DNA from: Micromonospora sp. CCTCC AA 2012012
Lineage (GTDB): Bacteria; Actinomycetota; Actinomycetes; Mycobacteriales; Micromonosporaceae
DNA length: 64,000 nt
Reading direction: 5' to 3'
NCBI RefSeq assembly: GCF_040499845.1
Contig: NZ_CP159342.1
Coordinates: 2,046,001-2,110,000 of the forward strand
Of this stretch, positions 12,305 through 39,461 are shown in pieces (the first letter of the stretch is position 1; each line of letters opens with the position of its first letter). The translations under genes and the position numbers were made by a program. The notes beneath the pieces are model-generated. The model was not told where the DNA came from. It was given only the letters and a program-made list of their open reading frames with translations, and did not search any database.

Positions 12305-12462
12305 GACGACCTCCTGTATTCGCGGGTGGTGGGGCGGAAATGGGTGTGCGGGGTCCGGCCACCGTGCGGTGGCCCGGGTCGCGGTGGGTCGGGTGTGGTG
12401 CGTGGCGCCGACGGGCGCCCCCGGTTCCGCAGGGACGCGGCGCCGGCCGGCGCCACCGGGGA

Positions 12463-15119: not shown

Positions 15120-15174
15120 CGGGTCACCTCGATTCGCGGCCGCCGCGCTCGCCGGGCCGGCTCGCACCGCGCGC

Positions 15175-16353: not shown

Positions 16354-16379
16354 GGGGCTCACCTCCGCATCGGATGTTT

Positions 16380-16639: not shown

Positions 16640-17716
16640 TCACCCGTGGAGACCACCGGTGCTCACCGGGTACATCCAGCCGTCCGGGTCCGGGGCCTTG
16701 CCGTGGTGCAGGTCGAGCAGCGCCTCGCGCAGCCGCATGGTGACCGGGCCGGGTGCCCCGTCGCCGACCGTCCACTCGGTGCCGCCGTCGCGCACGGCAC
16801 CGACCGGTGTCACCACCGCGGCCGTGCCGCAGGCGAAGACCTCGGTGATGGTGCCGTCGGCGCACTCCTGCCGCCACTGCGAGACGGACAGGCGCGTGGT
16901 GCCGCTGCGGTAGCCGAGCCGGGTGGCGAGGGTGAGCAGGGTGTCCCGGGTGACGCCGGGCAGGAGGGTGCCGGTCAGCTCGGGGGTGAGCACCTCGGCG
17001 TCGGCGCCGCTGCCCCGCACGAAGAACAGGTTCATCCCGCCGAGTTCCTCGACCCAGCGTCCCTCCACGGCGTCGAGCCAGACCACCTGGTGACAACCCT
17101 GCATCTGTGCCTCACGCTGGGACAGGAACGCCCCCGCGTAGTTGGCGGCGCACTTGACGTCGCCGGTGCCGCCGGGGAAGGCCCGGGCGGTGTCCCGGCT
17201 CACCCACACCCGCACCGGCTCGACGGCACTGCCGAAGAACCCGCCCGCCACGAAGGCCATCATCATGAAGGTGTACTCGTTCGCGGGCCGGAGCATCAGG
17301 TTGGCCTCGCTGGCGAAGAGCAGGGGGCGCAGGTAGAGGCTGACGTTCGGGTCGTCGCCGATGTGGTGGCCGTCGGCGGCGACGACCGCGTCGACCGCCT
17401 GGAGGAACATCTCCTCGGGCACCTCCGGCATCGCCAGCCGACGCGCGGAGCGCTGGAACCGCAGGGCGTTGTCCCGAGGCCGGAACACCGCCATGGAGCC
17501 GTCGACCTGCCGGTGGGCCTTCAGGCCCTCGAAGACCACCTGGCCGTAGTGCAGGCCGATCATGCCGGGGTGCATGGCGAAGGTCGTCAGCGGGCCGCGG
17601 GTGGCCGGGCCCCAGCCGGTGGCCGGGGTCCAGGTCGCGGAGACGAGGGTGTCGGTGAACTGCGCACCGTGCTCGACGTGCGGGAGCCGGGAGACGGGGG
17701 CTTGGGTCTGGGTCAT
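16640..17716 (-). CDS. ilvE: Branched-chain amino acid aminotransferase
   Basis: A 358-residue fold-type IV PLP enzyme. Diagnostic segments are YGQVVFEGLKAHR (residues about 58-70), YLRPLLFASE, GGTGDVKCAANYAG with the PLP lysine at about residue 188, GGMNLFFV, and EVFACGTAAVVTPV (phosphate site). These enzymes interconvert valine, leucine or isoleucine with their 2-oxo acids. It is the last gene of the NRPS operon, 106 bp after the SnoaL-like gene. It may supply a branched-chain or unusual residue to the NRPS, or be a duplicate housekeeping enzyme; the position in the operon favours the former. Confidence 0.85.
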   Translation of the reverse strand: MTQTQAPVSRLPHVEHGAQFTDTLVSATWTPATGWGPATRGPLTTFAMHPGMIGLHYGQVVFEGLKAHRQVDGSMAVFRPRDNALRFQRSARRLAMPEVPEEMFLQAVDAVVAADGHHIGDDPNVSLYLRPLLFASEANLMLRPANEYTFMMMAFVAGGFFGSAVEPVRVWVSRDTARAFPGGTGDVKCAANYAGAFLSQREAQMQGCHQVVWLDAVEGRWVEELGGMNLFFVRGSGADAEVLTPELTGTLLPGVTRDTLLTLATRLGYRSGTTRLSVSQWRQECADGTITEVFACGTAAVVTPVGAVRDGGTEWTVGDGAPGPVTMRLREALLDLHHGKAPDPDGWMYPVSTGGLHG

Positions 17717-17822: not shown

Positions 17823-18200
17823 TCAGACGAGCGGGGCGGAGAAGTAGGTCTCCCGGCGGCTGATGGCACCGGATGCGTCGAACTCGAAGAAGTCGGCGAA
17901 GCGCAGGTCGATCGGTGATCCGTCCAGGGCCACGCCCCGGAACCCGCCGTGGGCGGCGACACCGTCCCCGTCGGCGATCACCGCGTCGAGGGTGTGCACG
18001 CCCGATCGGATGGGTCGCAGCTCGCAGTAGAAGTGGGCGATCCGCTCCCGGCCGACCATCGGTGGGTGGCCGGGGCGGTGATAGAGGGCGTCGGGGGCGA
18101 ACAGCGCGACCGAAGCCAGCAGGTCGCCGGTGTCGATGAGACCGAAGTAGTCCCGCACGGTCCGGGCGTGAAGCTCGGGATGGACGACGGTGTCAGTCAT
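17823..18200 (-). CDS. SnoaL-like / NTF2-fold protein
   Basis: A 125-residue protein with the NTF2 fold pattern: [39 protein letters not shown], then a [11 protein letters not shown] strand. The ATG at 18200-18198 overlaps the NRPS stop codon (ATGA), so translation is coupled to the NRPS. SnoaL-like folds act as cyclases, isomerases, hydrolases or simple binding proteins. The sequence shows nothing that picks one. Coupling to the NRPS suggests a late tailoring or release-assisting role, which is inference. Confidence 0.75.
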
Positions 18201-21200
18201 CGTGCTTCTCCTTTCGGGGTGGCCGGTCCGGGGGTGGAGCCGGTCGCCCGGCCGGCGTTCGGCATGGTGGTCAGGTGGGCGGCCAGGACCGGCCCGATGT
18301 GGGCCAGCGCCGCCGGGCTCGTCATCAGCCCGTGGGAGAACGGCACCGGATGCACCTCGACGTGTCGTGCGCCGTGTGACGGCCACCGTCGCGCCGCGGT
18401 GGACCCGGCGGCGGTGAACAGCAGCAGGTCCCCGTCGAAGGGGGGCGAGGCGACCGACCGGGTCAGGTTCACGTGCGCGACGAAGACGCGCAGCACCGAC
18501 GCGGCGGTGGCACCCAGGGAGTCCAGGTCCAGCTCGGTCAGGGCGTCGAGCGTCAGCGGACCGTCGGGCACCGGCCGACCCAGCGAGTCCAGCACGGCGG
18601 CGACCGCCGCCGGGTCGTCGGGGCGCAGCGGCGCGGCGTCGGGGTCGACGTCGAACGGGTACGCGTCCAGGAGGGCGAGCAGCGCCACCTCCTCCCCCGC
18701 CGCGCGGAGCCGGGCGGCGATCCCGTGCGCGAGCGCGCCGCCGAAGGACCAACCGAGCAGGTGGTACGGGCCCGACGGCTGGACGGCGCGGATCTCGGCG
18801 AGGTGGTACGACACCAGCGCGTCCAGGTCGTCGGTGTGCCGGTGCGGGTCGGCGAGCGCGGGCGACTGCAGCGCGTACAGCGGCCGGTCGGGAAGGTGCC
18901 CGCGCAGCCCGGAGTAGACCCAGCCGAAGCCGGCGGCCGGGTGGACGCAGAACAGCGGCGGTGTGCCGCCGTCCACGCGCAGCGGGAGCATCGTCGCCAG
19001 CGGGTCGGCCCAGGTGTCGAGCTGCTCGGCCAGCCGGGCCACGGTCGGCGCCTCGAACAGCGACCGCACACTGACCTGGCCGCCCAGGTCCCGGGAGATC
19101 CGCCTGGCCAGCATCGCACCGAGCAGGGAGTGCCCGCCGAGGGCGAAGAAGTCGTCGTCGACGGTGACCTCCGGCAGCCCCAGCACCTCGGCGAAGAGAC
19201 CGCACAGGAGCCGTTCGACGTCGGTGCGCGGCGGTCGGCCGGTGGTGTGGTATTCGGGCGCGGGCAGCGCGGCGCGGTCCAGCTTGCCGTTGGCGGTCAT
19301 CGGGAGCCCGTCGAGGACCACGACCGCCGAGGGCACCATGTGCTCGGGCAGTTGCCGGGCCAGGTGGTCGCGGATGTCACCGGGCTCCGCCGCACCGACG
19401 ACGTAGGCGACGAGCCGGCGGTCGCCCGGTCGGTCCTCGCGTACCTCGACGGCCGCGCGGGTGAGTGCGGGATGGCGCAGCAGGGCCTGTTCGACCTCGG
19501 CGCGCTCCACCCGGAACCCGCGGATCTTGACCTGGTCGTCGGCCCGGCCCACGAACTCCAACTGGCCGTCGGTGGTCCGCCGGGCCAGGTCACCCGTGCG
19601 GTACATCCGCGCGCCGTCGTCGGCGAACGGGTTGGCCACGAACCGTTCGGCGGTCAGGCCCGGCTGCGCCACGTAGCCGTTGGCGAGCCCAGCGCCGCTG
19701 AGGTAGAGCTCGCCGACGACGCCGGGAGGAACCGGCTGCAGCGTGGCGTCGAGCAGGTGAGCGGTCTTGTTGGCGACCGGAGCGCCGATCGGCACGGTGC
19801 GGCCGGCCGGCCCGTCCTCGCGGGGCACCTCGTACGCGGTGGTCAGGCCCATGCTCTCCGCCGGGCCGTACCCGTTGGCCACCCGCAGCGTGGGCCACTG
19901 CCGCATCGCCCTGCTCACGTGGGCCGGCGACGCCGCCTCGCCCGCGGTGACCGCCCAGCGGAGCCCGGCGAAGACCGTGGGGCTCTCGTCGGTCATGAAG
20001 TTGAACAGGCTGGCGGACATCTGGAGCATGGTGACTCCGTGCGCGGCGACCAGGTCGGCGATCGCGTGCGGCTCCGGCCGGCTGCCGGGTTGCAGCACGC
20101 AGGTGCCCCCGAACAGCAGGGCGCCGAAGAGTTCCAGCGCGAAGGCGTCCCACGACATCGGGGCGCACTGCAGGAAGACCTGGTCGGCGCCGAAGTCGAC
20201 GTAGGACTGGCCGAGGAAGGTGCCGACCAGCGCGCGGTGCGGGGCCGCGACCCCCTTCGGTCGTCCACTGGAGCCGGAGGTGAACATCACGCAGGCGGTG
20301 TCGCCGGGGTCGGCCGGCACGGCGGGTGCGTGGGCCGGGCGGGCGGCGATGACGGCGGCGTCCGTGTCGACCCGCACGTAGCTGACGTCCCCCGCGTCGA
20401 GCCGGTCCCGCAGCGCGGACCGGGTGATGATCACGGGGGCGGTGGTGTCGGCGAGCGCGCCGCGCAGCCGCTCGGTGGGGAAGTCCGGGTCCAGCAGCGT
20501 GTAACCGGCACCGGTCTTGAGCACGGCGAGGAGGCTGACCACCAGGTCCGGGCCGCGTTCCAGGTGGATGCCGGCGAGGGTGCCCCGCCCGAGCCCCAGC
20601 GGGATCAGGTGGTGGGCCAGCCGGTTGGCCTCCCGGTCCAGTTCGGCGTAGCGGATCTTCCGGCCCTCGTGGATCAGGGCGGTGGCGTCGGGCGTCCGGG
20701 CCGCCTGCGCGGCCACCAGGTCGTGCAGGCAGCGGTCCAGGGGTACGTCGCGCGCGGTGTCGTTCCACTCCACGAGCAGTCGGTGCCGCTCCTGCGCGGT
20801 CAGTACGTCGACGGCGCCGATGCGGACCCCGGGGTCGGCGGCGACGGCGGTGAGCAGCCGCACGAGCCGCTGCCCGATCGCCTCGACGCTGGCGTGGTCG
20901 AACAGGTCCCGGGCGTACTCGACGGCGCCGTCGATGCCGGCCGGGGCGCCGTCGTCGTCCCGGTTCTCGCCGAAGGCGAAGGTGAGGTCGAACTTCGCCA
21001 CGCCGGTCCCGACCGGCTCGGTGCGCACCGTCAGTCCCGGGATCGTCAGCTCGCCGCGCGCGTTGTTCTGCACCACCAGGCTCACCTGATAGAGCGGGTG
21101 CCGGGCCGGGGTGCGCGGCGGGCGGACCAGGTCGACCACCGTCTCGAACGGCACGTCCTGGTGGGCGAAGGCGGTCAGGTCGACGTCGCGGACGCGGCGC

Positions 21201-24200
21201 AGCAGCGTGTCGAAGGTGGGGTCGCCGCTGGTGTCGGTGCGCAGGACCAGCGTGTTGACGAAGAAGCCGACCAGATCGTCCAGGGCGCTGTCGGTACGTC
21301 CCGCGACGGGCGTCCCGAGCGGGATGTCGGTGCCCGCGCCGAGCCGGGTGAGGAGCGCGGCCAGCGCGGCCTGCAGGACCATGAAGAGCGTGACCTGGTG
21401 GGCCCGGGCCACGGCGGCGAGCCGACCGTGCAGTTCCGCGTCGAGCCGCAGGTCGACGACGCCGCCGCCGGCGCGCGGCTGTGCGGGTCGGGGTCGGTCG
21501 GTCGGCAGGTCCAGTTCGTCGGGCAGGTCGGCCAGGGCGCTGGTCCAGTACTGCGACTGGTGGGTGAGCAGGCTGTCCGGGTCGTCCTCGGCGCCGAGCA
21601 GGTCCCACTGCCAGAGCGTGTAGTCCGCGTACTGGACCGGCAGGGGCGACCACTGCGGGGACTCACCGGCGTGCCGGGCGGCGTACGCGACGGCCAGGTC
21701 CCCCAGCAGGGGACCGGTGGACCAGCCGTCGCAGGCGATGTGGTGCAACGTCAGGAGCAGGACGTGTTCGTCGACGTCCAGTGCGAACAGCTCGGCCCGG
21801 ATCGGCGCCTCGGTCGCGAGGTCGAACGGGACGCGGGCGGCCCGCTCCAGGGTGCGGCCGAGGTCCGCCTCCGCGCAGGCGCGCAGCGGCACCGTGAGTC
21901 GTACCTCGTCGGGCGGGAGGATCCGCTGCCAGGGCAGGCCGTCGGTGGCCTGGAACACGGTCCGCAGCGCCTCGTGCCGGGCGACCACGTCGGTGAGCGC
22001 GGCGGCGAGGGTGGCCGGGTCGACCGGCCCGGTGAGGCGCAACGCGAACGGCGCGTTGTAGGTGGCGGCGGGTCCTTCGAGCTGGTCGACGAACCAGAGC
22101 CGGCGCTGCGCCGACGACAGCGGCAGGCGGTCCGGGCGGGGCCGGCGGGCGACCGGCGGGCGCAGCTGCTGCTCGTCGTCCAGCCGGTCGGCCAGGCCGG
22201 CCACCGTCGGGTGCTGGAACAGCGTCCGGATCGCCAACTCCGCGCCGAGGGCGGTGCGGACCCGGCTGATCAGCCGCGCCGCGAGCAGCGAGTGCCCGCC
22301 GAGGGCGAAGAAGTCGTCGTCGACGCCCACCCCGGGCAGCGTCAGCACCTCGGCGAAGAGCCCGCAGAGGATCTCCTCGCGCGGTGTGCGGGGCGGACGT
22401 CCGGTGCCGGTGCCGGTGAACTCGGGCACGGGCAGGGCCCGCCGGTCGAGCTTCCCGGTCGGCGTCAACGGGAACGCGTCGACGAGCACGAACGCCTGCG
22501 GCACCAGGTGCTCGGGCAGCCGTTCGGCGACGTGGCGGCGCAGGTCGGTCACGCTGACGGCGGTGTCGGCGCGGGCGACGACGTAGGCGACGAGCCGCTT
22601 GTCCCCCGGCCCCACCTCGTGCACCACCACCGCGGTACGGGCCACACCGGGATAGCTGCCGACGGTCGCCTCGACCTCCCGCGGTTCCACCCGGAAGCCG
22701 CGGATCTTCACCTGGTCGTCGGCCCGGCCGAGGAAGTCCAACACCCCGTCGGCGCGCCAGCGCACCACGTCGCCGGTGCGGTACATCCGCTCGCCGGGCG
22801 CGTCGTACGGGTTCGCGACGAACCGCTCCGCGGTCAACGCGGCCTGCCGGACATAGCCGTCGGCCAGTCCGACGCCGGACATGTACAGCTCGCCGGCGAC
22901 CCCGACCGGCACGGGTCGCAGCGCCTCGTCGAGGACGTACACCCGCTTGTTGCGGATCGGACGGCCGACCGGGACGGTCCCGCGGGCCACGTCGGCCGGC
23001 TCGACCGTGTGGCAGGTCGTGAAGATCATGCTCTCGGCGGGCGAGTACCCGTTGACCACGCGGACACCCGGGTACGCCGCCAGCAGCGCGGCGAGGTGCG
23101 GCACCGACGCGCGTTCGCCTCCGGTCATCACCTGGTCCACCCCGGTCAGCACGCCCGGGTACTCGTCGAGCAGGAAGTTGAGCAGGCTGGCCGACAGGTG
23201 GACGGTGGAGACGTGCCGCCGGGCGATCAGCTCGGCGATCACGGCCGGCTCGGGTTTCCCGCCGGGGTGCAGCACGCAGGTCCCGCCGAACAGCAGCGCC
23301 CCGAACAGCTCCAGCGCGAACGCGTCCCAGGAGACCGGCGAGCACTGCAGCACCACCTCGCCCGGGCCGAAGCGGACGAAGTCCTGCCCGTGGAGGGTGC
23401 CGACGACGGCCCGGTGCGGGGAGGCGATGCCCTTGGGTCGGCCGGTCGAGCCGGAGGTGAACATGACGCAGGCGACGTCGCCCGGGCGGGCCCGTCGGCC
23501 CGGCCGGTCACCGGAGCCGGTCCCGGCGACGGCAGGGTCGACCAGCAGGTCGGCGATCTGTCGGGTGGCCGGGTGGCCGGCGAACCCCACCTGGTCGGTG
23601 ACCACCAGCGCCACGCCCGCCTGGGCGACGACGGCCGCGAGCCGCTCGGGCGGGAAGTCCGGGTCGAGCATGGTGTATCCGGCGCCGGCCTTCAGCACGC
23701 CCAGCACGGCGGCCACCAGTTCCGGCCCCCGCGGCAGGTGCACTCCCACCACGTCGCCGACGCCGATCCCGGCGCGGTCGAGGCCGTGGGCGATCCGGTC
23801 GGCGTCGGCGTTCAGCCCGGCGTAGCTGACCGTGCGGTCGCCACACACCAGCGCTGTCGCCGCCGGACGCTCGGCGGCGTGCGCCTCGAACAGCTCGTGC
23901 AGACAGGCGTCGGGGACGACGCCGGCGGTGTCGTTCCACTCGTGCAGCAACCGGGTCCGCTCGCCCGGGTCGAACAGGTCGACCGCACCGATGGGCAGGT
24001 CCGGGTCGGCGGACAGGGCGGACAGCAGGCGTACCAGCCGGCGGCCGATCGCCTCGGCGGTCGCACGGTCGAACAGATCGGTGGCGTACTCCAGGTAGCC
24101 GGCGAGGCCGCCGGGCCCGTCGTCGGGAAGCTGCTCCACGAAGGCCAGCGCCAGGTCGAACTTGGCGACGTCGGCGCCGACCGGCAGGACCTGCGCCCGT

Positions 24201-27200
24201 ACGCCGGGGAACTCGGCCGTGGCCGCGGAGTTGTTCTGCACCGCCAGGTTCACCTGGAACAGCGGGTGCCGGGCGGTCGAGCGCGCCGGGTTGAGCGCCT
24301 CGACCAACCGCTCGAACGGCACGTCCTGGTGGGTGTACGCGGCCAGGTCGGTCTCCCGGACCCGGGCCAGCAGGTCCCGGAAGCTCGGCTCCCCGGAGGT
24401 GTCGGTCCGCAGCACCAGGGTGTTGACGAAGAACCCCACCAGGTCGTCGAGCGCCTGGTCGGTCCGGCCGGCGACGGGTGAGCCGATCGGCACGTCGGTG
24501 CCCGCGCCGAGCCGGGTCAGCAACGCCGCCAGGCCGGCCTGCAACACCATGAACAGGGTGACTCCGGCGTCCCGGGCGAGCCCGGTGAGGGCCCGGTACA
24601 GCTCGCCGTCCAGGTGCAGCGTCACCACGTCACCGCGGTGGCTGGGGCGGGCCGGCCGGGGCCGGTCGGTGGGCAGGGTCAGCTCCTCCGGCAGCCCGGC
24701 CAGCGCCTCGGTCCAGTACGCCAGCTGGCGCGACAGCAGGCTCTGCGGATCGTCCTCGGCGCCGAGCAGCTCCCGCTGCCACAGCGTGTAGTCGACGTAC
24801 TGGACGGCGAGTGGAGCCCAGTCCGGTTCGGCCCCGGCCCGTCGCGCCCGGTAGGCGACGGAGAGGTCCCGCAGCAGCGGGCCCAGGGACCAGCCGTCGC
24901 TGACGATGTGGTGCAGCATCAGCAGCAGGACGGTGTCGTCGGGCCCGACGGTGAACACCGTGGCGCGGACCGGCGTCCGGTCGGTCCGGCCGAGGTCGTG
25001 CGGCGTGGCGACGGCACGGGCCAGGGCGGTGTCGAGGCCCTCCGTGGTGCAGTCCACCATCGTCAGGTCCACCTCGGCGGGCGGCAGGACGACCTGGCTC
25101 GGCTCGCCGTCGTGCACCACGAATACCGTCCGCAGCACCTCGTGCCGGGTCACCACGTCGGTGACCGCCGCCGCCAGCGCGGGCAGGTCGACCGGGCCCC
25201 GCAGCCGTACGGCCAGCGGCGCGTTGTAGGTGGCGCTCGGCCCGTCCAGCCGGTCCAGGAACCACAGCCGCTGCTGGGCGAAGGAGAGCGGCACCCGTTC
25301 CGGGCGGGGTCGCGACCGTACCGGCGGACGTTCCGCCCGGGTGAGCCGGTCGGCGAGCCCGCACACGGTGGGCCACTGGAACACCGCGCGGATCGGCAGT
25401 TCGGCGCCGAGGACCGACCTGACCCGACTGATCAGCCGGGTCGCCAGCAGCGAGTGCCCGCCGAGGGCGAAGAAGTCGTCGTCGATGCCGACGCCGGTGA
25501 GGCCGAGGACGTCGCCGAAGAGTCCGCAGAGGATCTCCTCGCGGGGATTGCGCGGGCCCCGCCCGGTGGCGTCCGGACCGACCTCCGGGACCGGCAGCGC
25601 CCGCCGGTCGAGCTTGCCGTTGGGGGTCAGCGGCAGCGCGGGCAGCGCCACCAGCGCGGCGGGCATCAGGTGGGCGGGCAGCCGCTCCTCGAGGTGCCGG
25701 CGCAGGCCCGGGAGCGGGTCGGTGCCCCGCACCGGTACGACGTAGCCGACCAGCCGCCGGTCCCCCGGCCGGTCCTCCCGGACGACGACCGCGGCCTGCG
25801 CGACGGCGGGGTGCCGGTGCAGCACCGCCTCCACCTCGCCCGGCTCCACCCGGAACCCGCGGATCTTCACCTGGTCGTCCGCCCGCCCGACGAAGTCCAG
25901 CACCCCGTCCGGCCGCCAGCGGGCGAGGTCGCCGGTGCGGTACATCCGCTCGCCGGGCCGGCCGTACGGGTTGGCCACGAACCGCTCGGCGGTCGACGCG
26001 GCGCGGTTGACGTAGCCGTTGGCCAGGCCCACGCCCGCCACGTACACCTCGCCGGTCACGCCGGGCGGCACGGGTTGCAGGGCCACGTCCAGCACGTACA
26101 CCTTCTTGTTGGCCACCGGCGCGCCGATCGGCACGGAGGTCGTGCCCGCCGGGGCGGCGGCGGCCCGGTGCGCCGTCGTCAGGCCCATGCTCTCCGCCGG
26201 GCCGTAGCCGTTGACCACTGACAGGTGCGGGAACTGTCGCACCGCTTTCGTCACATGTGCCACGGAGGCTGACTCCCCTGCGGTGATCGCCCAACGCAGC
26301 CCCTCGAACGCCGTGGGGTACTCGTCGAGCAGGAGGTTGAAGAGGCTGGCCGACATCTGGAGCATGGTCACGTCGTGCGCCGCGGTGAGGGCCGCGATGG
26401 TGTCCGGCTCCGGCCGCTGCCCGGGGTGCAGCACGCAGGTGGCACCGGTCAGCAGCGCGCCGAACAGCTCCAACGCGAAGCCGTCCCACGACACCGGGGC
26501 GCACTGGAGGAACACCTGGTCGGCGTCGAAGTCGACGTAGGACTGGCCGAGGAAGGTGCCGGCCAGCGCGCGGTGCGGCGCCACGATCCCCTTCGGGCCG
26601 CCCGTGGAGCCGGAGGTGAACATGACGCAGGCCGGGTCGGTCGGGACGGCCCGCGCCCCGACGGGTGCCGCCGGTCCGCTGAGGGTGTCGGGCCGGACCA
26701 CGGTGGTGGGCAGGCCGGCGAGCAGGTCGCCGTCGGCGGCGGAGACGACCAGCGGGATGCCGGTGTCGGCGACCACGTCCCGCAGCCGGCCGGCCGGGAA
26801 GGCGGTGTCCAGCAGGGTGTACGCACCACCGGCTTTGAGGACGCCGAGCAGCGCCGCCACCAGGTCCGGCCCGCGGTCGAGGTGGACCCCGACGATGACG
26901 TGCGGGCCGACGCCGAGGCGGACCAGGGCGTGGCCGATGCGGTTGGCGGCGGCGTCGAGCGCGGCGTAACTGAGCGCCCGTCCCTCGGACAGGAGCGCGG
27001 TGGCGTCGGGGCGGGCGGCGACCTGCCGCTCGAACAGCTCGACCAGCGTGCGATCCAGGGGCGCGTCGGCCTCGGTGGCGTTCCAGTCGGTCAGGACCAG
27101 CCGGCGCTCGGCCGGGTCCAGCAGCTCCACCGCACCGATCGGGCGGTCGGGGTCGGCCAGCACGGCCGACACCAGCCGGGTCAGGGCGTCCGCCGTGGTC

Positions 27201-30200
27201 TGTGCGGTGGACCGCTCGAACAGGTCGGTGGCGTAGTCGAGCGAGCCGGTGATGCCGTCCGACCCCTGGGTGAGCGTGAGGGTCAGGTCGAACTTGGCGA
27301 CCGGCACCTCGACGGGCTCGGGCGCGCACTCCAGGCCGGGCAGGTCGAGGTCGCGGCCGGCGCTGTCGGTCAGCACCAGCATCACCTGGAACAGCGGATG
27401 CCAGGACGACGACCGGGTCGGGTTGACGGCCTCGACGACCCGTTCGAACGGCACGTCCTGGTGGGCGTACGCGGCGAGGTCGGTCTCCCGGACCCGGCCG
27501 AGCAGGTCCCGGAAGGTCGGATCGCCCGAGGTGTCGGTACGCAGCACCACGGTGTTGACGAAGAACCCGACCAGATCGGTCAACGCCTCGTCGGGCCGTC
27601 CGGCCACGGGGCTGCCGATGGGCACGTCGGTGCCGGCGCCCAGCCGGGTGAGCACCGCCGCCAACGCCGCGTGCAGCACCATGAACGGCGTGACCCGGGC
27701 CGCGCGGGCGAGGGCGGCGATGCGGTGGCAGGTGTCGGCGGTGAACCGTACCGGCACCGATCCCCCGGCCACGCCGGCGACCGGTGGCCGGGCCCGGTCG
27801 GTGGGGACCACCGGCGCGTCGGGCAGGCCGTCGAGTGCGGCGGTCCAGTACCGCAGCTGGCTGGCGGTCACGCTCTCCGGCTCGTCGGCCGCGCCGAGCA
27901 GCAGGTCCTGCCAGGCGGCGTAGTCCGCGTACTGCACCGGCAGCGGCGGCCAGTCGGGGGCGGCACCCGCGCGGCGGGCGGCGTAGGCGGTGGCGAGGTC
28001 GCGGGTCAGCGGCCCGACCGACGAACCGTCGCACGCCACGTGGTGCAGCAGCAGCAACAGCACCGTCTCGGTGCCCACCTCGAAGACGGTCACCCGGATC
28101 GGCAGCTCGGCGGCCAGGTCGAACGGGTGGGTGCGGGCGCGGCCCAGGGCGGCGGGAAGCTCGCCGGGCGGGCAGGTGACGACCTCGACCACGGGCGACA
28201 CCCCGGTCAGCGTGCGGGGCTGCGGCTGCCCGTGCACCGACGGGAGGACGGTCCGCAGCACCTCGTGCCGGTCCACCAGGTCGGCGAGCGCGTGGACGAG
28301 CGCGGCCCGGTCGAGCCGGCCGCGCAGCCGGTACGCCAGCGGCACGTTGTAGGCCTCCGGGCGGTCGATCTCGCGGAGGAACCACATCCGCCGCTGCGCG
28401 TGGGAGATCGGGACGACGGCCGGGTCGGTACGGCGCCGCAGCGCCGGCCGGCGTGCCGCCGCCGTGTCGAGCATCCGGGCCAGGCCGGCCACGGTCGGCG
28501 TCCGGAACACCGTGCGGATGTCCACCTCGGCGGCGAACGTGGCCCGTACCCGGGCGATGAGGCGGGCGGCGAGCAGCGAGTGTCCGCCCAGGGCGAAGAA
28601 GTCGTCGTGCCGGCCCACCTCCGGCAGGCCGAGGATGTCGGCGAAGAGTCCGCACAGGATCGCCTCACGGGCGTCGGCCGGTGGCTGGACGGCACTCGTG
28701 CCGGGGTCGGCGGCGGGTGCGGGCAGCGCGGCCCGGTCCAGCTTGCCGTTGGGCGTGACCGGCAGGGCGTCGAGCAGCACGACCGCGCTGGGCACGAGAT
28801 GTGCCGGCAGGAGGTCCCGGGTGTGGTCGCGCAGGGCCGCCGGGGTGGGTGCCGGGCCGGGTCGGGTGACGACGTACGCGGTCAGCCGCGGATCCCCGGG
28901 CCGGTCCTGGCGGACCACCACGGCGGCCTGCGCGACGGCCGGATGCCGGGTCAGGGCGGCCTGCACCTCGCCCGGCTCCACCCGGAAGCCGCGGATCTTC
29001 ACCTGGTCGTCGGCGCGCCCGACGAACTCCAGGACCCCGTCGGCGCGCCAGCGCACCAGGTCGCCGGTGCGGTACATCCGCTCGCCCGGAGCGCCGAACG
29101 GGTGGGCGACGAAGCGGGTCGCGGTGGTGCCGGGCTGGTTCACGTACCCGTCGGCGAGCCCCACACCGGCCATGTACAGCTCGCCGACGACGCCGACCGG
29201 CACCAGGGCGAGCCGGTCGTCGAGCACGTGGACCCGCTTGCCGGCGATCGGACCGCCGACCGGGATCGAGGCGCGGTCGGCGTCGTCCCGGGCCACCCGG
29301 TGGCACACCGTGAAGATCGTGTTCTCGGCCGGTGAGTAGCCGTTGACCAGACGCAGGTCGGGGTGCCGGTCCAGCAGCCGGGCGACGTGCTCGACGGAGG
29401 CCGCCTCGCCCCCGGTCATCACCTGGCGGACCCGGTCGAACACGGTCGGGTACTCGTCGATGAGGAAGTTGAGCAGGCTGGCGGAGACGTGCAGGGTGGT
29501 CACCGCGTGCTCCGGCACCAGTCGGGCGATCACCTCGGGTCGGGGTGCGCCGCCGGGTTGCAGGACGCAGGTGCCACCCGTCAGGAGTGGCCCGAACAGC
29601 TCCAGCGCGAAGGCGTCCCAGGACACCGGGGCGCACTGCAACCACACCTCGGTCGGCCCGAAGTCGACGTAGGACTGGTGCAGCAGGGTGCCGAGCACGG
29701 CCCGGTGCGAGGTCAGGATCCCCTTGGGGCGTCCGGTCGAGCCGGAGGTGAACATGACGCAGGCGGGGTCGTCGGGGCCCACCGGCACGCCGGGCCAGGT
29801 CTCGCACCCGTCGTCGTCCGGGTCGGCGGGCGGTACGCACCGCACACCGTCCAGGTCGGCACCGTCGTGGGTGACCACCAGCGGCGCGCCGGTCTCCGCG
29901 AGCACCGCGCGGCGACGCCGCGCCGGGAAGTCCGGGTCGAGCATGGTGTACGCCGCGCCGGTCCGGAGCACGGCCAGCACCGCGACGACCAGGTCCGGTC
30001 CCCGGTCGAGCTGGACGCCGACCACGGTGCCCCGGCGGGCACCCGCGGCGGCCAGCCGTCGGGCCAACCGGCCGGCTCGGGCGTCGAGGTCGCCGTAGCT
30101 GACCCGGTGACCGTCGAAGATCAGGGCGGTCGCGTCCGGGTCGGCGACGGCGACGGCGGTCACCGTCTCGTGGAGGGTGCCGGACGGCGCCGGTGCGGTG

Positions 30201-33200
30201 GTGTCGTTCCAGGTGTGCAGCAGCCGGTCCCGTTCGGCGGTGTCCAGCAGGCCGACGGCACCGATCCGGGTGTCCGGTGCGACGGCGACCTGGTCGAGCA
30301 GCCGCACCAGACGGGCCGCGAAGGCCGCCACGGTGGACGGGTCGAACAGCGCGCCGGGGAACTCCACCACGCCGGTGAGGCCGGCGGCGGATCCGTCGGT
30401 GGACCGGCACTCCCGCAGCTCGACGTTCAGGTCGAACTTGGCCGTGCCGGTGCGGACCGGCTCCAGCCGGGCCGGCGCCGCACCGAGGTGCACCTCGCCG
30501 TCGGCGGTGTTCTGCAGCACCAGCATGATCTGGAACAGCGGGTGCCACGCGGTGGAGCGGGGTGGGTTGACCGCCTCGACCACCCGGTCGAACGGCACGT
30601 CCTGGTGGTCGAACGCGGCGAGGTCGGTGGCGCGGACCCGGCCCAGCAGCTCCCGGAACGTCGGGTCGCCCGTCGTGTCGGTGCGCAGCACCAGGGTGTT
30701 GACGAAGAACCCGACGAGGTCGTCGAGCGCCGCGTCGGTACGCCCGGCGACCGCCGTGCCGATCGGGACGTCGGTGCCCGCGCCGAGGCGGGTGAGCAGG
30801 GCCGCCAGGGCCGCCTGGAGGACCATGAACAGCGTGACGTTGCCGGCCCGGGCGAGGTCGGCGAGGTGGGCGTGGGTCTGCGGGGAGATCCGCAGCGCGA
30901 CGGTGTCGCCCGCCGTGGCGCCGTCGGCCGGCCGGGGGTGGTCGGTGGGCAGCACGGGCGATCCGGGCAGCCCCGCCAGCGCGGTGCTCCAGAACCGCAG
31001 CTGTGCGTGGAGCAGGCTGTCCTGGTCCGTCTCGTCGCCGAGCAGGGCGTGCTGCCAGCGGGCGTAGTCGGTGTAGCGGGCGGGCAGCGGCGCCCACTCC
31101 GGCACGGTTGCGGCGTGCCGCGCCGCGTAGGCGGTGGCGAGGTCGCGTACCAGGGGTGCCATCGACCAGCCGTCGGACGCGATGTGGTGCAGGACCAGCA
31201 CCAGCACCGAGTCGCCGTCGTCGAGTTCGATCAGGGTGGCGCGCAGCGGGGTCTCGTCGGCGAGGACGAACCGGTGGCGGGCCACCCGGGCCACGACCTG
31301 CGCGGCTTCCGCCGCCGGGGCGGCGACGACGTCCAGCACCGGCCGGACGTCCTGCGGGGCCGGCACCACCGGGTACGGTTCGCCGTCCACCGCCGGGAAG
31401 AGGGTGCGCAGCGGTTCGTGGCGGGCCATCACGTCGCCGAGCGCCGCGCGCAGCGCGTCCGGGTCGAGCCGGCCGCCGACCCGGACCGCCTGCGGCGCGT
31501 TGTAGGTGCGGCCGTCGTCGTCGGTCTGGTCGAGGAACCACACCCGGCGCTGCGCGTGCGACAGCACCGGCGGCGCGTCCGGCGGCCCGGCGCTGACCGC
31601 CGGCCGCGCGGCGGCGGCCCCGTCGAGCCGGACGGCCAGGTCGGCCACGGTCGGCGCGGCGAAGAGCGCGGCGAGGGGCACCTCCACCCCCACCGTGGCG
31701 CGGATGCGGCTGACCAGCCGGGTTGCCAGCAACGAGTGTCCGCCGAGGGCGAAGAAGTCGTCGTCGACGGTCACCGCGGGCAGCCCCAGCACCTCGGCCA
31801 CCAGGCCGCAGAGGATCTCCTCGCGCGGGGTGCGGGGCGCCCGACCCGCCGACGCGGCGGCGAAGTCCGGGGTGGGCAGCGCGGCCCGGTCCAGTTTGCC
31901 GTTGGCCGTGCGGGGCAGCTCGGTCAGCAGGACCACGGCGGAGGGAACGAGGTGACCGGGCAGCAGCTCCGCCGCGTGGGACCGTACCTCGGCGGCGGTC
32001 ACCGACCGGGCGACCACGTAGGCGACCAGTCGGTTGCCGTGCGCGGCGTCGGCGAGCGCCACCACGGCCGCCTGGCTGATCGCCGGATGGGCGGTCAGGG
32101 CCGCCACCACCTCCGCCGGTTCCACCCGGAAGCCGCGGATCTTGACCTGGTCGTCGACCCGGCCCAGGAATTCGAGGACCCCGTCGGCCCGGCGCCGGGC
32201 CAGGTCGCCGGTGCGGTACATCCGCGCCCCGGCCGGACCGGACGGGTCAGCGACGAACCGTGCGGCGGTCTGTCCGGGCTGGTCCAGGTAGCCCACGGCG
32301 AGACCGACACCGGCCACGTACAGCTCGCCGGCCACGCCGGGCGGGACCTGGCGCAGGTCGCCGTCGAGGACGTACGCCCGCTTGTTCGCCACCGGAAGGC
32401 CGATCGGTACGGTCGCGCCGGTGACCTCGGTGACGTCGTCGAGCGGGTGCCAGGTGGTGAACCCGAGACTCTCGGCGGGTCCGTAACCGTTGACCACCAC
32501 CAGCCCGGGCCACCGGGCCAGCGCGGTGGCGACGTGCCCCGGTGAGGCCGGCTCCCCGCCGGTGAAGACCCGCCGCACCCCGTCGAACGACCGTGGATAC
32601 TCGTCGATGAGGTGGTTGAAGAGGCTGGCGGAGGTCTGCAGCATGGTGACCCCGTGCGTGGCCACCAGTTCGGTGATCCGTTCGGGGTCCGGCCGGCCGT
32701 CGGGGTGCAGCACACAGACGCCACCGAACAGCAGCGCCCCGAACAGTTCCAACGCGAACGCGTCCCAGGACACCGGGGCGCACTGGAGGAACACCTCTGC
32801 CGGGCCGAAGTCGGCGTACCGCTGGCCCGCGTAGGTGCCGACCAACGCCCGGTGGGCCGCGACGACCCCCTTGGGTGCTCCGGTGGAGCCCGAGGTGAAC
32901 ATGACGCAGGCCGGGTCGTCGGGTCCGACGGCGACGACCGGCGGCGTGGCGGGGCCGTCCTGCGCGGGCACGTCGTCGAGGTGCAGCAGTCGGGTGGTGG
33001 CGGGCAGGCGGCCGGCGGCCGGCAGCCGGGTGACCACGAGCGGCGTCAGCGCGGCGACCGCGGCGATCCGGGCGGCGGGGAACGCCGGGTCGAGCAGGGT
33101 GTACGCCCCACCGGCCTTGAGCACCGCGAGCAGCGCCACCACGAGGTCGACACCGCGTGCGAGGTACACGCCGACGACGACGCCCGGCCGTACCCCGGCC

Positions 33201-36200
33201 TGGACCAGTCGGTGCGCGAGCCGGTTCGCGCGGGCTTCCAGCTCCCCGTAGGTCAGCCTCGCGTCCCCGGTGACCAGGGCGGTGGCGTGCGGGGTCCGCG
33301 CCGCCTGCGCGGTGATCAGGTCGTGCAGGCACCGGGCGGGGTACGGGGCGTCGGTGTCGTTGACGTCGGTCAGGACCGCCCGCTCGGCGGAGGAGAGCAG
33401 GTCCAGGTCGCCGATCGGCCGCTCCGGGTCGGCGGTGAGCACCGCCGCCAGCCGCTCGGCCAGCGCGGCGACGGTGGCGTGGTCGAACCGGTCGGTGGCG
33501 TACTCCAGCACACCGGTGATGCCGGCCGGCCCGCCGTCGGCGGTGTGCTGCTCGGCCACGTCGAGCATCAGGTCGAACTTGGTCGCCGCGGGCCGGATCT
33601 CCGTCACCGTGGCGTCCACGCCCGGCACGGTCTCCGTCCCGGTCGCGTTCTGCAGCACCAACAGCACCTGGAACAGCGGGTGACGGGCCGGGTGACGGTG
33701 CGGGTTCACCGCTTCGACGACCTGGTCGAACGGGACGTCCTGGTGGGCGAAGGCGGCCAGGTCGGTGTCCCGGACCCGGTCGAGCAGCCGACGCAGGGAC
33801 GGGTCGCCCGACGTGTCGGTGCGCAGCACGAGGGTGTTGACGAAGAAGCCCACCAGGTCGTCGAGGGCGACGTCGGAGCGGCCGGCCACGACCGTGCCGA
33901 CCGGCACGTCGGTGCCGGCGCCGAGCCGGGTGAGCGTCGCGGCGAGCCCCGCGTGCAGCACCATGAACACCGTGGCGCGGGCGGCCTGGGCGACCTCGAC
34001 GAGCCGGGCGTGCAGGTCCGCGGGCAGCCGGAAGGGCACCGTGCCGGCCGCGTGGGTCGGCTCGGCGGGACGCGGCCGGTCCGCGGGCAGCGGGATCTCG
34101 GCGGGGACGCCGTCGAGACGGTCGCGCCAGTACGCGAGCTGCCGCTCCGCGAGCCCACCGTCGAGCACGTCCCGCTGCCAGAGCGTGTAGTCGGCGTAGG
34201 CGACCGGAAGGAGATCCCAGTCCGGGGCGTGCCCGGCGAGCCGGGCCCGATAGGCCAGGCCGAGATCGCGCAGCAGCGGACGCATGGACCAGCCGTCGCC
34301 GGCGATGTGGTGCAGCACCAGCACGACCAGCGTCTCGTGCGGTGCCTGCAGCACGGTGACCCGCAGCGGGGACTCACTGGCCAGGTCGAACGCCTCGGCC
34401 GCCTCGGCCCGGACGGTCGCGTCGGGGTCGGGGCCGGCCGGCGCGGTCCGCAGCCGGGGGGACACCGACGCGACGTCCGCCACGCGTTGGCGGGGGCGCC
34501 CGTCGACGGCGGGGAAGACGGTACGCAGCACCTCGTGCCGTTGCGCCAGGTCCCGGACCGCCGCGTCGAGCGCGACGACGTCGAGCGGGTCCGCCACCCG
34601 CACCACGCGGACGAGGTTGTACTTCTCCGGCGCCCGCTCGAACTGGTCGAGGAACCACAGTCGCTGCTGGGCCGCCGAGGGCTCCAGCTCGGCGGGCCGA
34701 GGACGGGGGCGCAGTGGCGGGCGGGCCGCCGGTGCCGCCGCGACCACCTCGGCGAGCGTCTCCGGTGTCGCCGCCGCGAACAGGGCCCGGATGTCGATCT
34801 CCGCCGTCAGCTCGGCGCGGACCCTGCTGATCAGCCGGGACGCCAGGAGGGAGTGGCCGCCCAGGTCGAAGAAGTCGTCGTCGACGCCGACCACGGGCAG
34901 GTCCAGCACGTCGGCGAAGATGGCGCAGAGCGCCGCCTCCGTCGGTGTCCGTGCCGCGCGACCGCGCACCTGCACCGCCGGCGCGGGCAGGGCGGCGCGG
35001 TCGAGCTTTCCGTTGGCGGTGATCGGCAGGGCGTCGAGGATCACCACCGCCGCCGGTACCAAATGTTCGGGCAGCCGGGTCCCCGCGTCGGCCCGCAGCT
35101 GCGCCGCGCTGGCCTCGGCGTCGGCTGCGAGAACCACGTACGCCGTGAGCCGCCGGTCGCCGGGGCGGTCCTCCCGGACGACGACCTCCGCCTGGCGCAC
35201 CGCCGGGTGCTGCGTCAACGCCGCCCGCACCTCGCCGGGCTCCACCCGGAATCCACGGATCTTGACCTGCTCGTCGGCCCGGCCGAGGAAGTCCAGCACC
35301 CCGTCCGCGCGCCAGCGGACGAGGTCACCGGTGCGGTACATCCGCTCCCCGGGCGCGTCGAAGGGGTTCGCCACGAACCGCTGCGCCGTCGTCCCGGGCT
35401 GGTGGATGTACCCGTCGGCGAGCCCGACGCCGGCCATGTACAGCTCGCCGACGGTCCCGACGGGCACCGGGTCGAGGTTGTCGTCGAGCACGTACACCCG
35501 TTTGTTGCGCAGGGGGCCGCCCACCGGGATCGCCCGCGCGGTGTCGGCCGGGGCGATCCGGTGGCAGGTGGTGAAGATGGTCGACTCGGCGGGTGAGTAG
35601 CCGTTGACGAGGTTCAGGTCGGGGTGGCGGTGCAGCAGTCGGGCCACGTGCGCGACCGAGGCCGGCTCACCTCCGGTCAACACGTTCGCCACCCGGTCGA
35701 AGACCGCGGGGTGCTCGTCGACCATGTGGTTGAGCAGGCTGGCCGACAGGTGCAGCACGGTCACCCCGTGCCGCTCGACGAGGTCGGCGATGGTCAGCGG
35801 CTCGGGCCGGCCGCCGGGGTGCAGCACGCAGGTGCCGCCGTGCAGCAGCGCACCGAACAGCTCCAGGGCGAAGGCGTCCCAGGACACCGGCGCGCACTGC
35901 AACCACACCTGCGCCGGGCCGAACGCCACGAAGGACTGGCCGAGCAGGGTGCCCACGACGGCCCGGTGCGGGGTGGCGATGCCTTTGGGCCGGCCGGAGG
36001 AGCCGGAGGTGAACATGACGCAGGCGAGATCCCCGGCGGTGACGGGGACGCCGTCGGCGTCCGGCGCGGCGGGCGACCCGGTGGTGGTCCCGGCGTCGAT
36101 GCGGATCGTCTCGACGGGCGCGTCGGGCAGCCGGTCGGCCGCGTCGCGGTCGGTGACGACGAGCCGGCAGCGGGCCTCGGCGAGCACGGCGCGCAGCCGG

Positions 36201-36652
36201 GCCGGCGGGAACGCCGGGTCCAGCAGGGTGTACGCGGCTCCCGCCTTGAGCACGGCGAGCACCGCGACGACCAGCTCGGGTCCGCGTTCGAGGCAGATGC
36301 CGACGACCTGACCGCGCCCGGCGACCCGTCGACGTACGCGCGCGGCGAGCAGGTCGGCCCGCTCGTCCAGCTCCCGGTAGCTGAGCCGGTCGGTCCCGGA
36401 CACCACGGCGGTCGCCGTCGGCGTGCGCGCGGCCTGCTCCGCGATCAGGTCGTGCAGGCACGCGTCGGCCGGGAACACGGCGGCGGTGTCGTTCCAGCCG
36501 GCGTCGGGCCACCTCGGCGGGGGTGCCTGGACGTGACCGGGCACCCCCGCCGGTCGGCGCGGGTCGAGGCGGACACCGTCCGTTCCCCGTGGGCCTGTTC
36601 CCGTGCCGGCCGGTGCCCCGACGTCGCCGAGCCGCTGCTGTGACTGAGTCAC
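18197..36652 (-). CDS. Six-module nonribosomal peptide synthetase with terminal thioesterase
   Basis: A 6151-residue single-chain NRPS laid out as A-T, five C-A-T modules, then TE. Approximate positions: A-domain substrate cores ([14 protein letters not shown]) at residues 254, 1296, 2345, 3390, 4443 and 5501; carrier motifs (GGHSLL) at 598, 1638, 2689, 3731, 4785 and 5840; condensation HHxxxDG motifs intact at 785, 1825, 2872, 3916 and 4973; TE serine in GWSFGG near 5967. Every A domain keeps the catalytic lysine in GKLDR. There is no epimerase, methyltransferase, cyclisation or starter C domain, so a hexapeptide is expected. Pocket codes read by eye (235-331) are DALSLGGIF, DALSFGGGF, DALSMGGIF, DGLSIAGGL, DALSMGGIF and DALSVAGGL. 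Modules 1,3,5 and 2,4,6 form two alternating types. I cannot assign the amino acids; Asp235 implies ordinary alpha-amino acids. Confidence 0.95.
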
Positions 36653-36664
36653 CGTCGACCATCC

Positions 36665-36904
36665 CTACTTGTCGGTGGCGCGTCCGGTCAGGACGGCCTG
36701 GCTCGCGCCGGTGGCGAGGCTCGCCGGGCGCAGGTCGGTCCAGCAGCGTTCGATGTGGTCCAGGCAGGCCTGCCGGCTGTCCTCGCCGAAGGTCACCCGC
36801 CACCCCGCCGGTACGGCGATCCGGGCGGGCCAGAGCGAGTGCTGGTTGTCGGCGTTGACCAGGACCAGGTACACGCCGTCCTCGTCCTCGAACGGGTTGG
36901 TCAC
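36665..36904 (-). CDS. MbtH-like NRPS accessory protein
   Basis: A 79-residue protein matching the MbtH family almost end to end: [15 protein letters not shown], then [22 protein letters not shown] and WTDLRP, including the conserved tryptophans. MbtH proteins bind A domains and are needed for their solubility or activity. The GTG start (36904-36902) overlaps the stop of the MFS gene, and the NRPS starts 12 bp after its stop, so supply is tied to NRPS translation. A C-terminal tail of about 15 residues goes beyond the family core. Confidence 0.95.
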
Positions 36905-38181
36905 GACACGTCCTCCTTCGGTGCGGTGGTGGGCAGGTCCCGGACGGACCTGATGGGGCCGATGAGCCGGACGAGCTTGCCGAGGATCACGGCGACGGTG
37001 ATCACCCAGAGCGCCTGCCGTACGCCGAGCTCGGCGCCGAGCCATCCGCCGAGGACCGCACCGACGGGGATGATTCCGAACTGGATAAAGCGCGAACTGG
37101 TGTAGACCCGGCCGAGCAGGTGTGCCGGGCAGTACGACTGCCGGAACCCGGTGACCACGACGTTGCCGACGACCATGCCGATCGACGGCACGAGGATCCC
37201 GAGGACGAACAGGACCAGGCCCGGCCCGTCCTGGGTCAGCGGGACGAGCAGGCAGAAGGGTGCGGTACCGATCGAGAAGAGCAGCAGGGTACGGGCGGTC
37301 CCGAGCCGCCCGGCCACGCGCCGGGCGATGATCGCGCCGAGGAGTCCGCCGACGAAGTCCGCCGCGAGCAGGAACCCGACGGCACCGGGCGCGGCGCCGA
37401 CGGTACGGATCAGGAAGAGCACCGTGAGCGCGTACATCGCGTTGAGGGTGAAGTTGTCCACGGCGGCGCTGATGGCCAGGATCCGCAGGTACCGGTCCCG
37501 TCCCACGTAGCGCAGCCCCGCGCCGATCTCCTGCCGGGTGCTGGTGCGTTCCGCGGCCGGAGCGGGCAGCACCTCCGCGACCCGCATCCGCAGCAGGCAC
37601 ACCGCCGACACGACGAAGGTGACCGCGTCGACCAGCAGCCCGGTCACCGCGCCGGCGGCCTGGGTGATCAGACCGCCCAGCGGCGGCCCGGCCAGGTTGG
37701 CCACCTGGTCGGTGCCCTGGAGTTTGGCGTTCGCCTCGGCCAGGTCGGTCTTGTCCACCACCGCCGGCAGGAACGCCTGGTAGGCGGTGCTGAAGAACAT
37801 CGACGCGGTGCCGGCGGCGAAGGACACCACGATCAGCTGTCCGACGCTCAGCAGGCCGAGCCAGGCCGCCAGCGGCACGCTGAGCAGCACGGCGATCGAG
37901 ACGGCGTTGGCGGACAGCATGGTCCGTCGGCGCGGGTAGCGGTCGATCCAGGCCCCGGCGGGCAGGCCCATCAGCAGCCAGGGCAGCCACGCCATCGCGT
38001 TGATCACGCCCATGGTGACCGGGCTGGCGTCCAGGGTCACGACCGCCACCAGGGGGAACGCCACGCCGGTCACCGCGCTGCCGGCCTTGCTGGTCGCCTC
38101 CCCCAGCCAGAGCAGCCGGAAGTTCCGGTGGCGCAGCAGACCGTCCGGTGCCCGTACCGGTGGTGTATCGGTGAGGTTCAT
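36901..38181 (-). CDS. MFS transporter, probable peptide exporter
   Basis: A 426-residue polytopic protein with about twelve hydrophobic segments, of the MFS_3/EntS-like type. It has the cytoplasmic loop motif [15 protein letters not shown] after helix 2, and GPPLGG and [11 protein letters not shown] later. The ATG (38181-38179) overlaps the stop of the upstream GltB-like gene (ATGA). MFS proteins of this type inside NRPS clusters usually export the product and give self-resistance, which is the likely role here. Confidence 0.9.
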
Positions 38182-39461
38182 GCCAGCTCCACTTCCCGCT
38201 GCGACCATTCCGGATGCCAGATGTCCTGCTCGGCGAGGCCGGCCACCGCGTACCGGCCCAGCGCGCTGATCAGGAGCCGCAGTTCCAGCGCCAGGCATTC
38301 GACGAGTCGGATCAGTCCCGCCTCCGGGTCGGTGTCGGCGGCCAGGATCGCGGCGCGCCCGAGACCGATCGCGTTCGCGCCGAGGGCGAGCGCCTTGGTG
38401 GCTCGCGCGCCCTCCCACATCCGGCCGCTGACCAGCAGGGGCCCGGTGGCCGGCGTCCGGCCGATCCGGCGCAGGCACTCCACCAGCGGCAGGCCGACGT
38501 GGTCGAGGAACACCGACGGCGCCCAGCCGGTGCCGCCCTCGGCGCCGTCGACGGTCACCGCGTCGGCGCCGGCGGCCCAGGCGACCTCGGTGGCCTCGGC
38601 GATGTCGCGACCGGGTGGCAGCTTCACCCAGACCCGGGCCCGGGGGTAGTTGTTGCGCATCAGGTGGATCTGGTGCGCCAGGATCTCCTGGGTGAACGTG
38701 CCGGGCGCGCTGGAGCGCAGCACACTGGCGCAGTCGGCGCCGAACACCGGATCGATCAGGTACTGGTCGCCGAGGCGGCCGGCGGTCCGCTCCGACACCA
38801 GGGTCATGCCGCCGAGTCCGGGCTTGGCGCCCTGACCGACCTTCAACTCGAACCCCAGCCGTCCGCTGTCCAGCAGCGGCTGTGCGGACGGGTCGCTGTA
38901 CACGAGGTTCCACACCTCGGCGTCGGCGTCCTCGGTGCTCTGCTGCACGACCACTCCGCCGAGCCCGTCCGGGACGGTGGCGCAGTACTCGCGCAGTCGG
39001 CCCAGCAGCGCGCTCTCGCCGGCCGGTCCGAGCCGCCCGTACCCGTTGACCGGCACGACGTTCTCGCCGATCACCATCGGCAGGCCGAGGGTGCCCGCCT
39101 GCCGGGCCACCGCCCGACCGAGGTCCGCGCCGGCCACCTGGGTCGACCCGAAGGCGGAGACGTAGACCGGCAGCGGGGCGGCGAACCCCCCGACGCTGGT
39201 GTGCAGCTCGACGTCGCGGTACGTCGGTTCACTGGCCAGGTCGATCAGTTTCTCCAGCCGCAGCGGCATGAAGACCGGCGGTACCAGGCGCAGCGCGTCG
39301 AGCCCGTCGGCGGGCGTCCCGTCGCCGGCGCCGAGCAGGGTGTGGCCGTAGCTCGCCGGGGGTGGGAACACCGCCTGGGTGCCGGTGCGGGCCCGGTGCC
39401 TGACCGCCTCCTCGGGGAATGTGTCGGCCCGCAGGGCGGCCGGTGTGCCGCTCGTGCTCAC
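38178..39461 (-). CDS. GltB-like FMN-binding (glutamate synthase domain) protein
   Basis: A 427-residue protein resembling only the FMN domain of glutamate synthase. Segments: [15 protein letters not shown] (about residues 204-218), [25 protein letters not shown] (about 303-314), then [10 protein letters not shown]. In true glutamate synthases the next stretch carries cysteines (CHxNxCP) for a 3Fe-4S cluster. Here the same place reads [18 protein letters not shown] and lacks them. There is also no glutaminase domain. It is therefore a stand-alone flavoprotein that may act on an imine or amino acid derived from the neighbouring pathway. GTG 39461-39459 overlaps the previous stop. The reaction is unknown. 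Confidence 0.8.

Follow-up and report, generated by a model that had tools for sequence, protein, structure and literature searches.

What peptide would be made by a nonribosomal peptide synthetase (NRPS) whose adenylation (A) domains take turns between two types, and how did such an order arise? The question is raised by a gene of Micromonospora sp. CCTCC AA 2012012 located at 18197..36652 (minus strand) of the window, the 64,000-nucleotide stretch that we analyzed, which covers positions 2,046,001-2,110,000 of a 6.73-Mb, one-contig genome (code G000, contig C1). The gene is a single open frame encoding 6151 residues, and the Pfam matches and motif positions gave the domain order A-T-(C-A-T)5-TE, with six A, six thiolation (T), five condensation (C) and one thioesterase (TE) domains. 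A motif search revealed the expected A3, A5, A8, T and C motifs in every module; the repeating A/T/C order, intact core motifs and release domain characterize the protein as a modular (type I) NRPS. No epimerization (extra C-like) domain was found in the NRPS by Pfam and motif searches, the C motifs numbering exactly five. The gene appears to be part of an operon of tightly packed minus-strand genes that runs from a MutS-like gene through the NRPS to an aminotransferase gene. As judged from the sequences, this stand-alone operon probably supplies both of its building blocks itself and links them in turn into (allo-Ile - 3-methyl-Asp/Asn)3, either linear or cyclic.

Two pocket types alternate along the six modules

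The pocket residues were mapped by hand at positions 235, 236, 239, 278, 299, 301, 322, 330 and 331 of the GrsA numbering. Position 278 was found to alternate H-Q-H-Q-H-Q along modules 1-6. The odd modules share the pattern DALH[LM]GGIF, with DALHLGGIF in module 1 (A-T; 34703..36652) and DALHMGGIF in both module 3 (C-A-T; 28433..31582) and module 5 (C-A-T; 22139..25306). The even modules, all C-A-T, share the pattern D[AG]LQxxGGx, with DALQFGGGF in module 2 (31583..34702), DGLQIAGGL in module 4 (25307..28432) and DALQVAGGL in module 6 (18983..22138); these boundaries, all on the minus strand, are approximate. An earlier note on this DNA had described two A domain types in strict alternation, and the pocket codes, as well as the order kept in four genomes, agree with that description. 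The markers on which it relied were also recovered from the translation: NGYSPAE..IFT, SASLLN, VPVGxxGELYM and GLADGY all occur in modules 1, 3 and 5, and NGYGPAE..G(F/L)TT, SASLFN and PPGVxGE all occur in modules 2, 4 and 6.

Given three modules of each type, strict alternation would be expected by chance in 2 of 20 orders. The H-Q-H-Q-H-Q order, together with the complete gene set, was found again in two genomes of the same genus (G266 and G271) and in one genome of the same order but another family (G630), where the glutamate mutase E subunit (MutE) is 95%, 79% and 69% identical, respectively, to the window copy. The alternating order was present in 4/4 lines found with the operon, which share descent and hence are not independent draws. 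In G266, the closest relative, the NRPS is split into two overlapping frames (L091-L092), owing to either a sequencing error or a real break.

Substrate of the even modules

The A domain of module 2 showed its best match of all PDB chains to SlgN1 (4gr5), with a score of 595.6 bits. The same mapping gave DALQIGGGF for SlgN1, compared with DALQFGGGF for module 2, and SlgN1 is described as activating (2S,3S)-3-methyl-Asp (PMC11253843). The first genes of the operon, all on the minus strand, encode a glutamate mutase S (B12-binding) subunit (41793..42290), MutE (40462..41799), an AsnS-like, asparagine synthetase A-like ligase (39458..40465; SlgZ-like by annotation) and a GltS/FMN-domain protein (38178..39461; SlgE3-like by annotation). 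The score of the ligase exceeds the NCBIfam threshold for 'asparagine synthetase A'. When aligned to a solved glutamate mutase, MutE keeps Arg66, Arg100, Arg149, Glu171, Tyr177 and Tyr181, which we take to be the substrate-binding residues; the set was kept in 80/80 fetched loci and in 21/22 hits in longer stretches, the remaining hit being a cut fragment. In S. lydicus, slgE1 and slgE2 presumably encode the glutamate mutase subunits. The slgE1-slgE2-slgE3 genes are reported to supply 3-methylaspartate, where SlgE3 is a glutamate synthase (GltS-like), and SlgZ is described as asparaginyl-tRNA-synthetase-like (PMC5357945).

A natural contrast at position 322 was found among 31 clusters with Q-type pockets, 28 of which have Gly322 and three Ala322. 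MutE was encoded in the fetched stretch for 24 of the Gly322 clusters and elsewhere in the genome for the other four (G1019, G250, G380 and G536), whereas no MutE match was found at an E value of 0.001 in the genomes of the three Ala322 clusters (G183, G282 and G043); the same query matched 73/354 genomes of that family, some at just 34-39% identity. Both Q pockets of these clusters have Ala (DALQFGAGF). The three clusters (L179-L184, L197-L199, L218) are relatives of a second cassette cluster of G000 and, being related, may represent one event. They retain the AsnS-like and GltS-like genes in the absence of the mutase, which argues that both genes do more than serve the mutase. The contrast would connect a single methyl group with a single residue of the pocket, and we regard it as the strongest, although indirect, support for the even-module substrate.

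Four observations weigh against this assignment. First, module 1 also scored high against SlgN1 (529.4 bits, behind LgrA with 557.5 bits summed over two stretches); overall A domain similarity fails to separate the two types, and it is therefore the pocket that separates them. Second, the SlgN1 precedent is 3-methyl-Asp, rather than 3-methyl-Asn, as the loaded form. Third, three genomes (G357, G360 and G075) carry the cassette with no Q- or K-type pocket. Fourth, the even modules differ from each other in all four genomes, as module 2 has Gly301 and Phe331 and modules 4 and 6 have Ala301 and Leu331; given this difference, the residues that they add may differ as well. With these points taken into account, 3-methyl-Asp/Asn is very likely the even residue.

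The second glutamate mutase/AsnS-like/GltS-like cassette in G000 is located at C1:1459720-1489000 (L106, L107) and recurs in several relatives; the NRPS beside it has the pockets Q-Q-Gln-like-Lys-like-W-Y. Additionally, in two proteins of 768-778 residues (P0037 and P0113), MutE is fused to an AsnS-like ligase domain (PF06368+PF00152), which supports a shared pathway.

Substrate of the odd modules

Directly downstream of the NRPS on the minus strand are genes for a SnoaL/NTF2-like protein (17823..18200), which overlaps the NRPS stop and is a probable beta-carbon isomerase, and a branched-chain aminotransferase (IlvE; 16640..17716). One other branched-chain aminotransferase copy was found in the genome (C1:3890223), 49% identical to that of the cluster. 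In desotamide-type clusters, an aminotransferase and an isomerase are reported to make L-allo-Ile (PMC7459860, PMC9943842).

Twelve clusters with H-type pockets were compared, including four of one ortholog group. SnoaL and IlvE were present in 11 of them, and the twelfth (G250) lies on a 12.5-kb contig. In contrast, SnoaL was found in 0/25 Q-type clusters without H within the fetched stretches, most of these genomes having had no genome-wide SnoaL search. Counted as lineages, which were grouped by eye, six H-type versus six Q-only lineages gave a p value of 0.002. Two of the H-type clusters (G075 and G236) were found with A domain queries blind to SnoaL. The count leaves out an H-type fragment on a 6.4-kb contig (G356/L015), a Q-type line with no cassette gene in 17 kb (G357b), whose genome has MutE (L028), and, in G420, an incomplete DALH fragment at the end of a contig, not scored as H. 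G354 was treated as one cluster, its first modules being listed twice in two overlapping stretches; for G360, the cassette genes were added manually on the basis of L065, and for G354, G361 and G230 the count combines genes from more than one contig. The H-type cores grouped with DGLFMGGVY (support 86), which we take to be an Ile-like code, and Tyr replaces His278 in one orthologous module pair. Alignment of 25 SnoaL-like sequences revealed an invariant Y40-R42-P43-G44 and H69; the catalytic role of the SnoaL protein is a predicted one.

The evidence against an allo-Ile type residue is of several kinds. Two of the H-type clusters (G630 and G651) were found via the SnoaL search, and IlvE is about 29 kb from SnoaL in G651. 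A SnoaL homologue is present elsewhere in three (G375, G536 and G627) of the 25 Q-only genomes. SnoaL and IlvE also occur with W-type pockets (G358/G359) and, without H, in G550, in G369 and in G478, the last with the pockets DALYMGGIF and DGFFSGAVF. A His at position 278 is not usual in aliphatic pockets, and we know of no assayed H-type domain. None of the 15 hits of the SnoaL homologue search was named allo-Ile isomerase; the allo-Ile isomerase presumably has a SnoaL fold, and the likeness to DsaD/DsaE is one of gene context. Finally, wherever the flanks of an H-type cluster could be read (11 clusters), the mutase and AsnS-like genes were present too (those of G360 in L065), and the H-type pockets might therefore use a mutase-derived residue.

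The last observation favors a reading in which both pockets take one amino acid, the Q-type 3-methyl-Asp and the H-type 3-methyl-Asn or a beta-epimer, so that the product would be a hexapeptide of glutamate-derived methylaspartate units only. Epimerization of methyl-Asp at the beta carbon would be within reach of an aminotransferase and an isomerase, and in Nocardiopsis the MutSE, IlvE and SnoaL genes stand side by side with the AsnS-like gene absent. However, SnoaL and IlvE are present in two genomes (G550 and G369) with no MutE match at 1e-30, and the pair is therefore independent of 3-methyl-Asp; the grouping with an Ile-like pocket and the Tyr substitution also argue against this reading, as does the lack of SnoaL in the fetched stretches of the 25 Q-only clusters, though 21 of these have the AsnS-like gene. 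We consider it quite unlikely that a single amino acid fills both pockets.

Alternatively, the odd modules may take ordinary Val or Ile, with the aminotransferase and SnoaL otherwise employed, to give (Val/Ile - 3-methyl-Asp/Asn)3. Related W-type pockets (DALWxGGIF), which we assume to resemble Val/Ile codes, do occur without SnoaL. Moreover, globomycin module 5 is described as accepting either allo-Ile or Val (PMC9943842). Nonetheless, the pair immediately follows the NRPS, whose stop is overlapped by SnoaL, and the presence of the pair tracks the H-type pocket (11/12 versus 0/25), which makes ordinary Val or Ile an improbable odd residue. On balance, an allo-Ile type residue appears to be the probable substrate of modules 1, 3 and 5.

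Another repeated-module line was observed in Nocardiopsis (L023, L030, L102-L104, L117-L118), where an NRPS in which two or five modules are W-type (DxLWMGGIF) is adjoined by MutSE, an aminotransferase and SnoaL; the AsnS-like gene was not found there.

Proposed pathway and product

In the proposed pathway, the glutamate mutase (MutS and MutE) would convert glutamate to 3-methylaspartate, which the AsnS-like ligase and the GltS-like flavoprotein would probably amidate to 3-methylasparagine, before or after loading. L-allo-isoleucine would probably arise from isoleucine by epimerization at the beta carbon, carried out by the aminotransferase and the SnoaL-like protein. With an MbtH-like protein (36665..36904, minus strand), modules 1, 3 and 5 would load the allo-Ile type residue and modules 2, 4 and 6 would load 3-methyl-Asp/Asn; the residues would stay L because the NRPS has no epimerization domain. 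The TE domain (18197..18982, minus strand; Pfam and translation), with the motif GWSFGG and a predicted role in release or cyclization, would free (allo-Ile - 3-methyl-Asp/Asn)3 as a linear or cyclic hexapeptide, and a major facilitator superfamily (MFS) protein (36901..38181, minus strand) would export it. The substrates, amidation, collinearity, release mode and export are the parts of this scheme that we infer.

A hexapeptide of a repeated dipeptide, as the earlier note had proposed, is the natural collinear reading of six alternating modules. The line might instead skip modules, iterate or dimerize its product through the TE domain, and the product would then not be a hexapeptide. Repeated-unit peptides such as valinomycin and gramicidin S are often made iteratively, but here three repeats are already encoded by the six modules, the order is kept in four genomes and the expected motifs are all present; a non-collinear line appears very unlikely. 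For the preferred (allo-Ile - 3-methyl-Asp/Asn)3, the computed [M+H]+ values with 3-methyl-Asn are 724.435 (cyclic) and 742.446 (linear), and those with 3-methyl-Asp are 727.387 (cyclic) and 745.398 (linear). This prediction can be checked by mass, since the two-residue steps of the ladder would be about 241.14 or 242.13 Da. No peptide of such composition was found in the titles and abstracts of the literature searched, which was open-licence only and makes this a weak negative.

A more detailed version can be put forward tentatively, as possible rather than expected: a three-fold symmetric, all-L cyclo-(L-allo-Ile - L-3-methylAsn)3 would be made by six collinear modules, the alternation would stem from exchange of some 180 A domain residues rather than from module duplication, and position 322 would act as a gauge for the methyl group, changing from Gly to Ala upon loss of the mutase. 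If this were true, the cyclic product would alternate aliphatic and amide side chains. The alternation is real and conserved and can now be interpreted chemically; the substrate proposals, on which the earlier note was silent, are what is new here, and the cluster is an orphan.

Evolutionary history of the modules

We cut the 24 A-T pieces of the four genomes into segments for tree building, and the C domain tree contained 20 rows. In the window NRPS, the same-parity minus cross-parity identity was +0.109 in the A domain core and +0.077 in the next segment, compared with +0.011 in the A N-terminal part, -0.022 in the A C-terminal subdomain and -0.015 in T. The earlier note had taken the markers as agreement over the whole A domain, which is not what these values show, since the excess lies mainly in the core and the next segment. 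It had also predicted a tree in which A domains 1/3/5 separate from 2/4/6. This was found in the core and in the next segment (to motif A8), where odd and even modules were separated by one branch with Shimodaira-Hasegawa-like approximate likelihood-ratio test (SH-aLRT) supports of 99 and 97, respectively. In the approximately unbiased (AU) test, parity grouping was neither shown nor rejected for the A N-terminal part (p-AU 0.42), the A C-terminal subdomain (0.081) and T (0.124), and it was rejected by the C domains (p-AU 0.0008), in which neighbors pair instead (C3+C4, 95; C5+C6, 92). The closest C pair (C5/C6, 64%) and the closest T pair (T4/T5, 77%) both cross parity in module identity.

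A sliding scan showed clear parity only around module-2 residues 1330-1430, and the parity signal spans about 180 residues of the A domain. A candidate restriction of parity to the 110-column core was rejected, as the signal extends into the next segment (97) and weakly into the A flanks (91). The latter value is from a larger A-flank set that omits the C-terminal subdomain and consists of SlgN1, the 24 domains of the four lines and, from 11 selected clusters, those domains with scores >560; the odd/even split was weak there. In a wider tree of the A flanks and C-terminal part, which kept 68 A domains that were long enough and had a complete code (one G000 row was removed by name), one pair was formed by M1+M3 (98) and another by M4+M5 (81).

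The repeated duplication of a two-module unit that the earlier note had deduced is unsupported, because parity shows in about 180 A domain residues and the C domains reject it. Exchange of the substrate-binding segment, or selection on it, probably produced the alternating order, rather than duplication of a two-module block. With many relatives included, the H rows do not fall into a single supported clade (odd/even split 87), which counts against our overall reading. A C-A-T-C-A-T unit could have been duplicated twice, with later gene conversion between neighbors erasing parity in C and T; such a history would fit the clean parity of the core and next segment and its weak trace in the A flanks when the C-terminal part is omitted, and conversion may happen, as some same-parity segments cluster within the G630 genome (M1+M5, 86; M4+M6, 75; A_M). 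Nevertheless, the rejection of parity by the C domains, their neighbor pairing in four genomes and the grouping of M4+M5 besides M1+M3 make block duplication unlikely. The line may also be of practical use, as it may offer related A domains that differ in type mainly over 180 residues, which would be useful for NRPS subdomain swapping.

Neighboring genes

An AfsR/SARP-type regulator gene (42642..45647, minus strand) is located upstream of the operon and is kept there in G266 and G271. Sugar ATP-binding cassette transporter genes, an oxidoreductase and a ROK regulator adjoin the cluster (10023-16362) and are probably unrelated to it. Two adjacent large proteins of the ThuA type (4265-6370) and the sorbosone dehydrogenase type (6431-9289) both end in CBM6 and ricin-type lectin domains.

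Comparison with known systems

The amycolatomycins of Amycolatopsis are described as cyclic hexapeptides from six modules, with allo-Ile in one congener; they were rejected as the product of this cluster, since the described system is unrelated, with dichloro-Trp in the peptide, three NRPS genes and epimerization domains (PMC8002008). The streptolydigin cluster of S. lydicus shares with the present one, by annotation, the glutamate mutase pair, the AsnS-like ligase and the GltS-like flavoprotein, and the pockets of SlgN1 and module 2 are nearly the same. The SlgN1-like pocket type occurs three times here in a pure NRPS, whereas streptolydigin contains one such unit, in an N-methylated tetramic acid made by a polyketide synthase (PKS)-NRPS. 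No PKS module or methyltransferase, N-methyltransferases included, was found among the window genes scanned, and the cluster is not that of streptolydigin. Compared by gene context, desotamide (DsaD/DsaE) and marformycin (MfnO/MfnH) likewise have, within an NRPS operon, an isomerase-like gene adjoining that for an aminotransferase; the adjoining A pocket here differs in having His278, unlike the ordinary Ile code. The products of iterative lines of the valinomycin/enniatin type likewise repeat a two-residue unit, but the repeats are written out here as six modules, so that iteration is unneeded.

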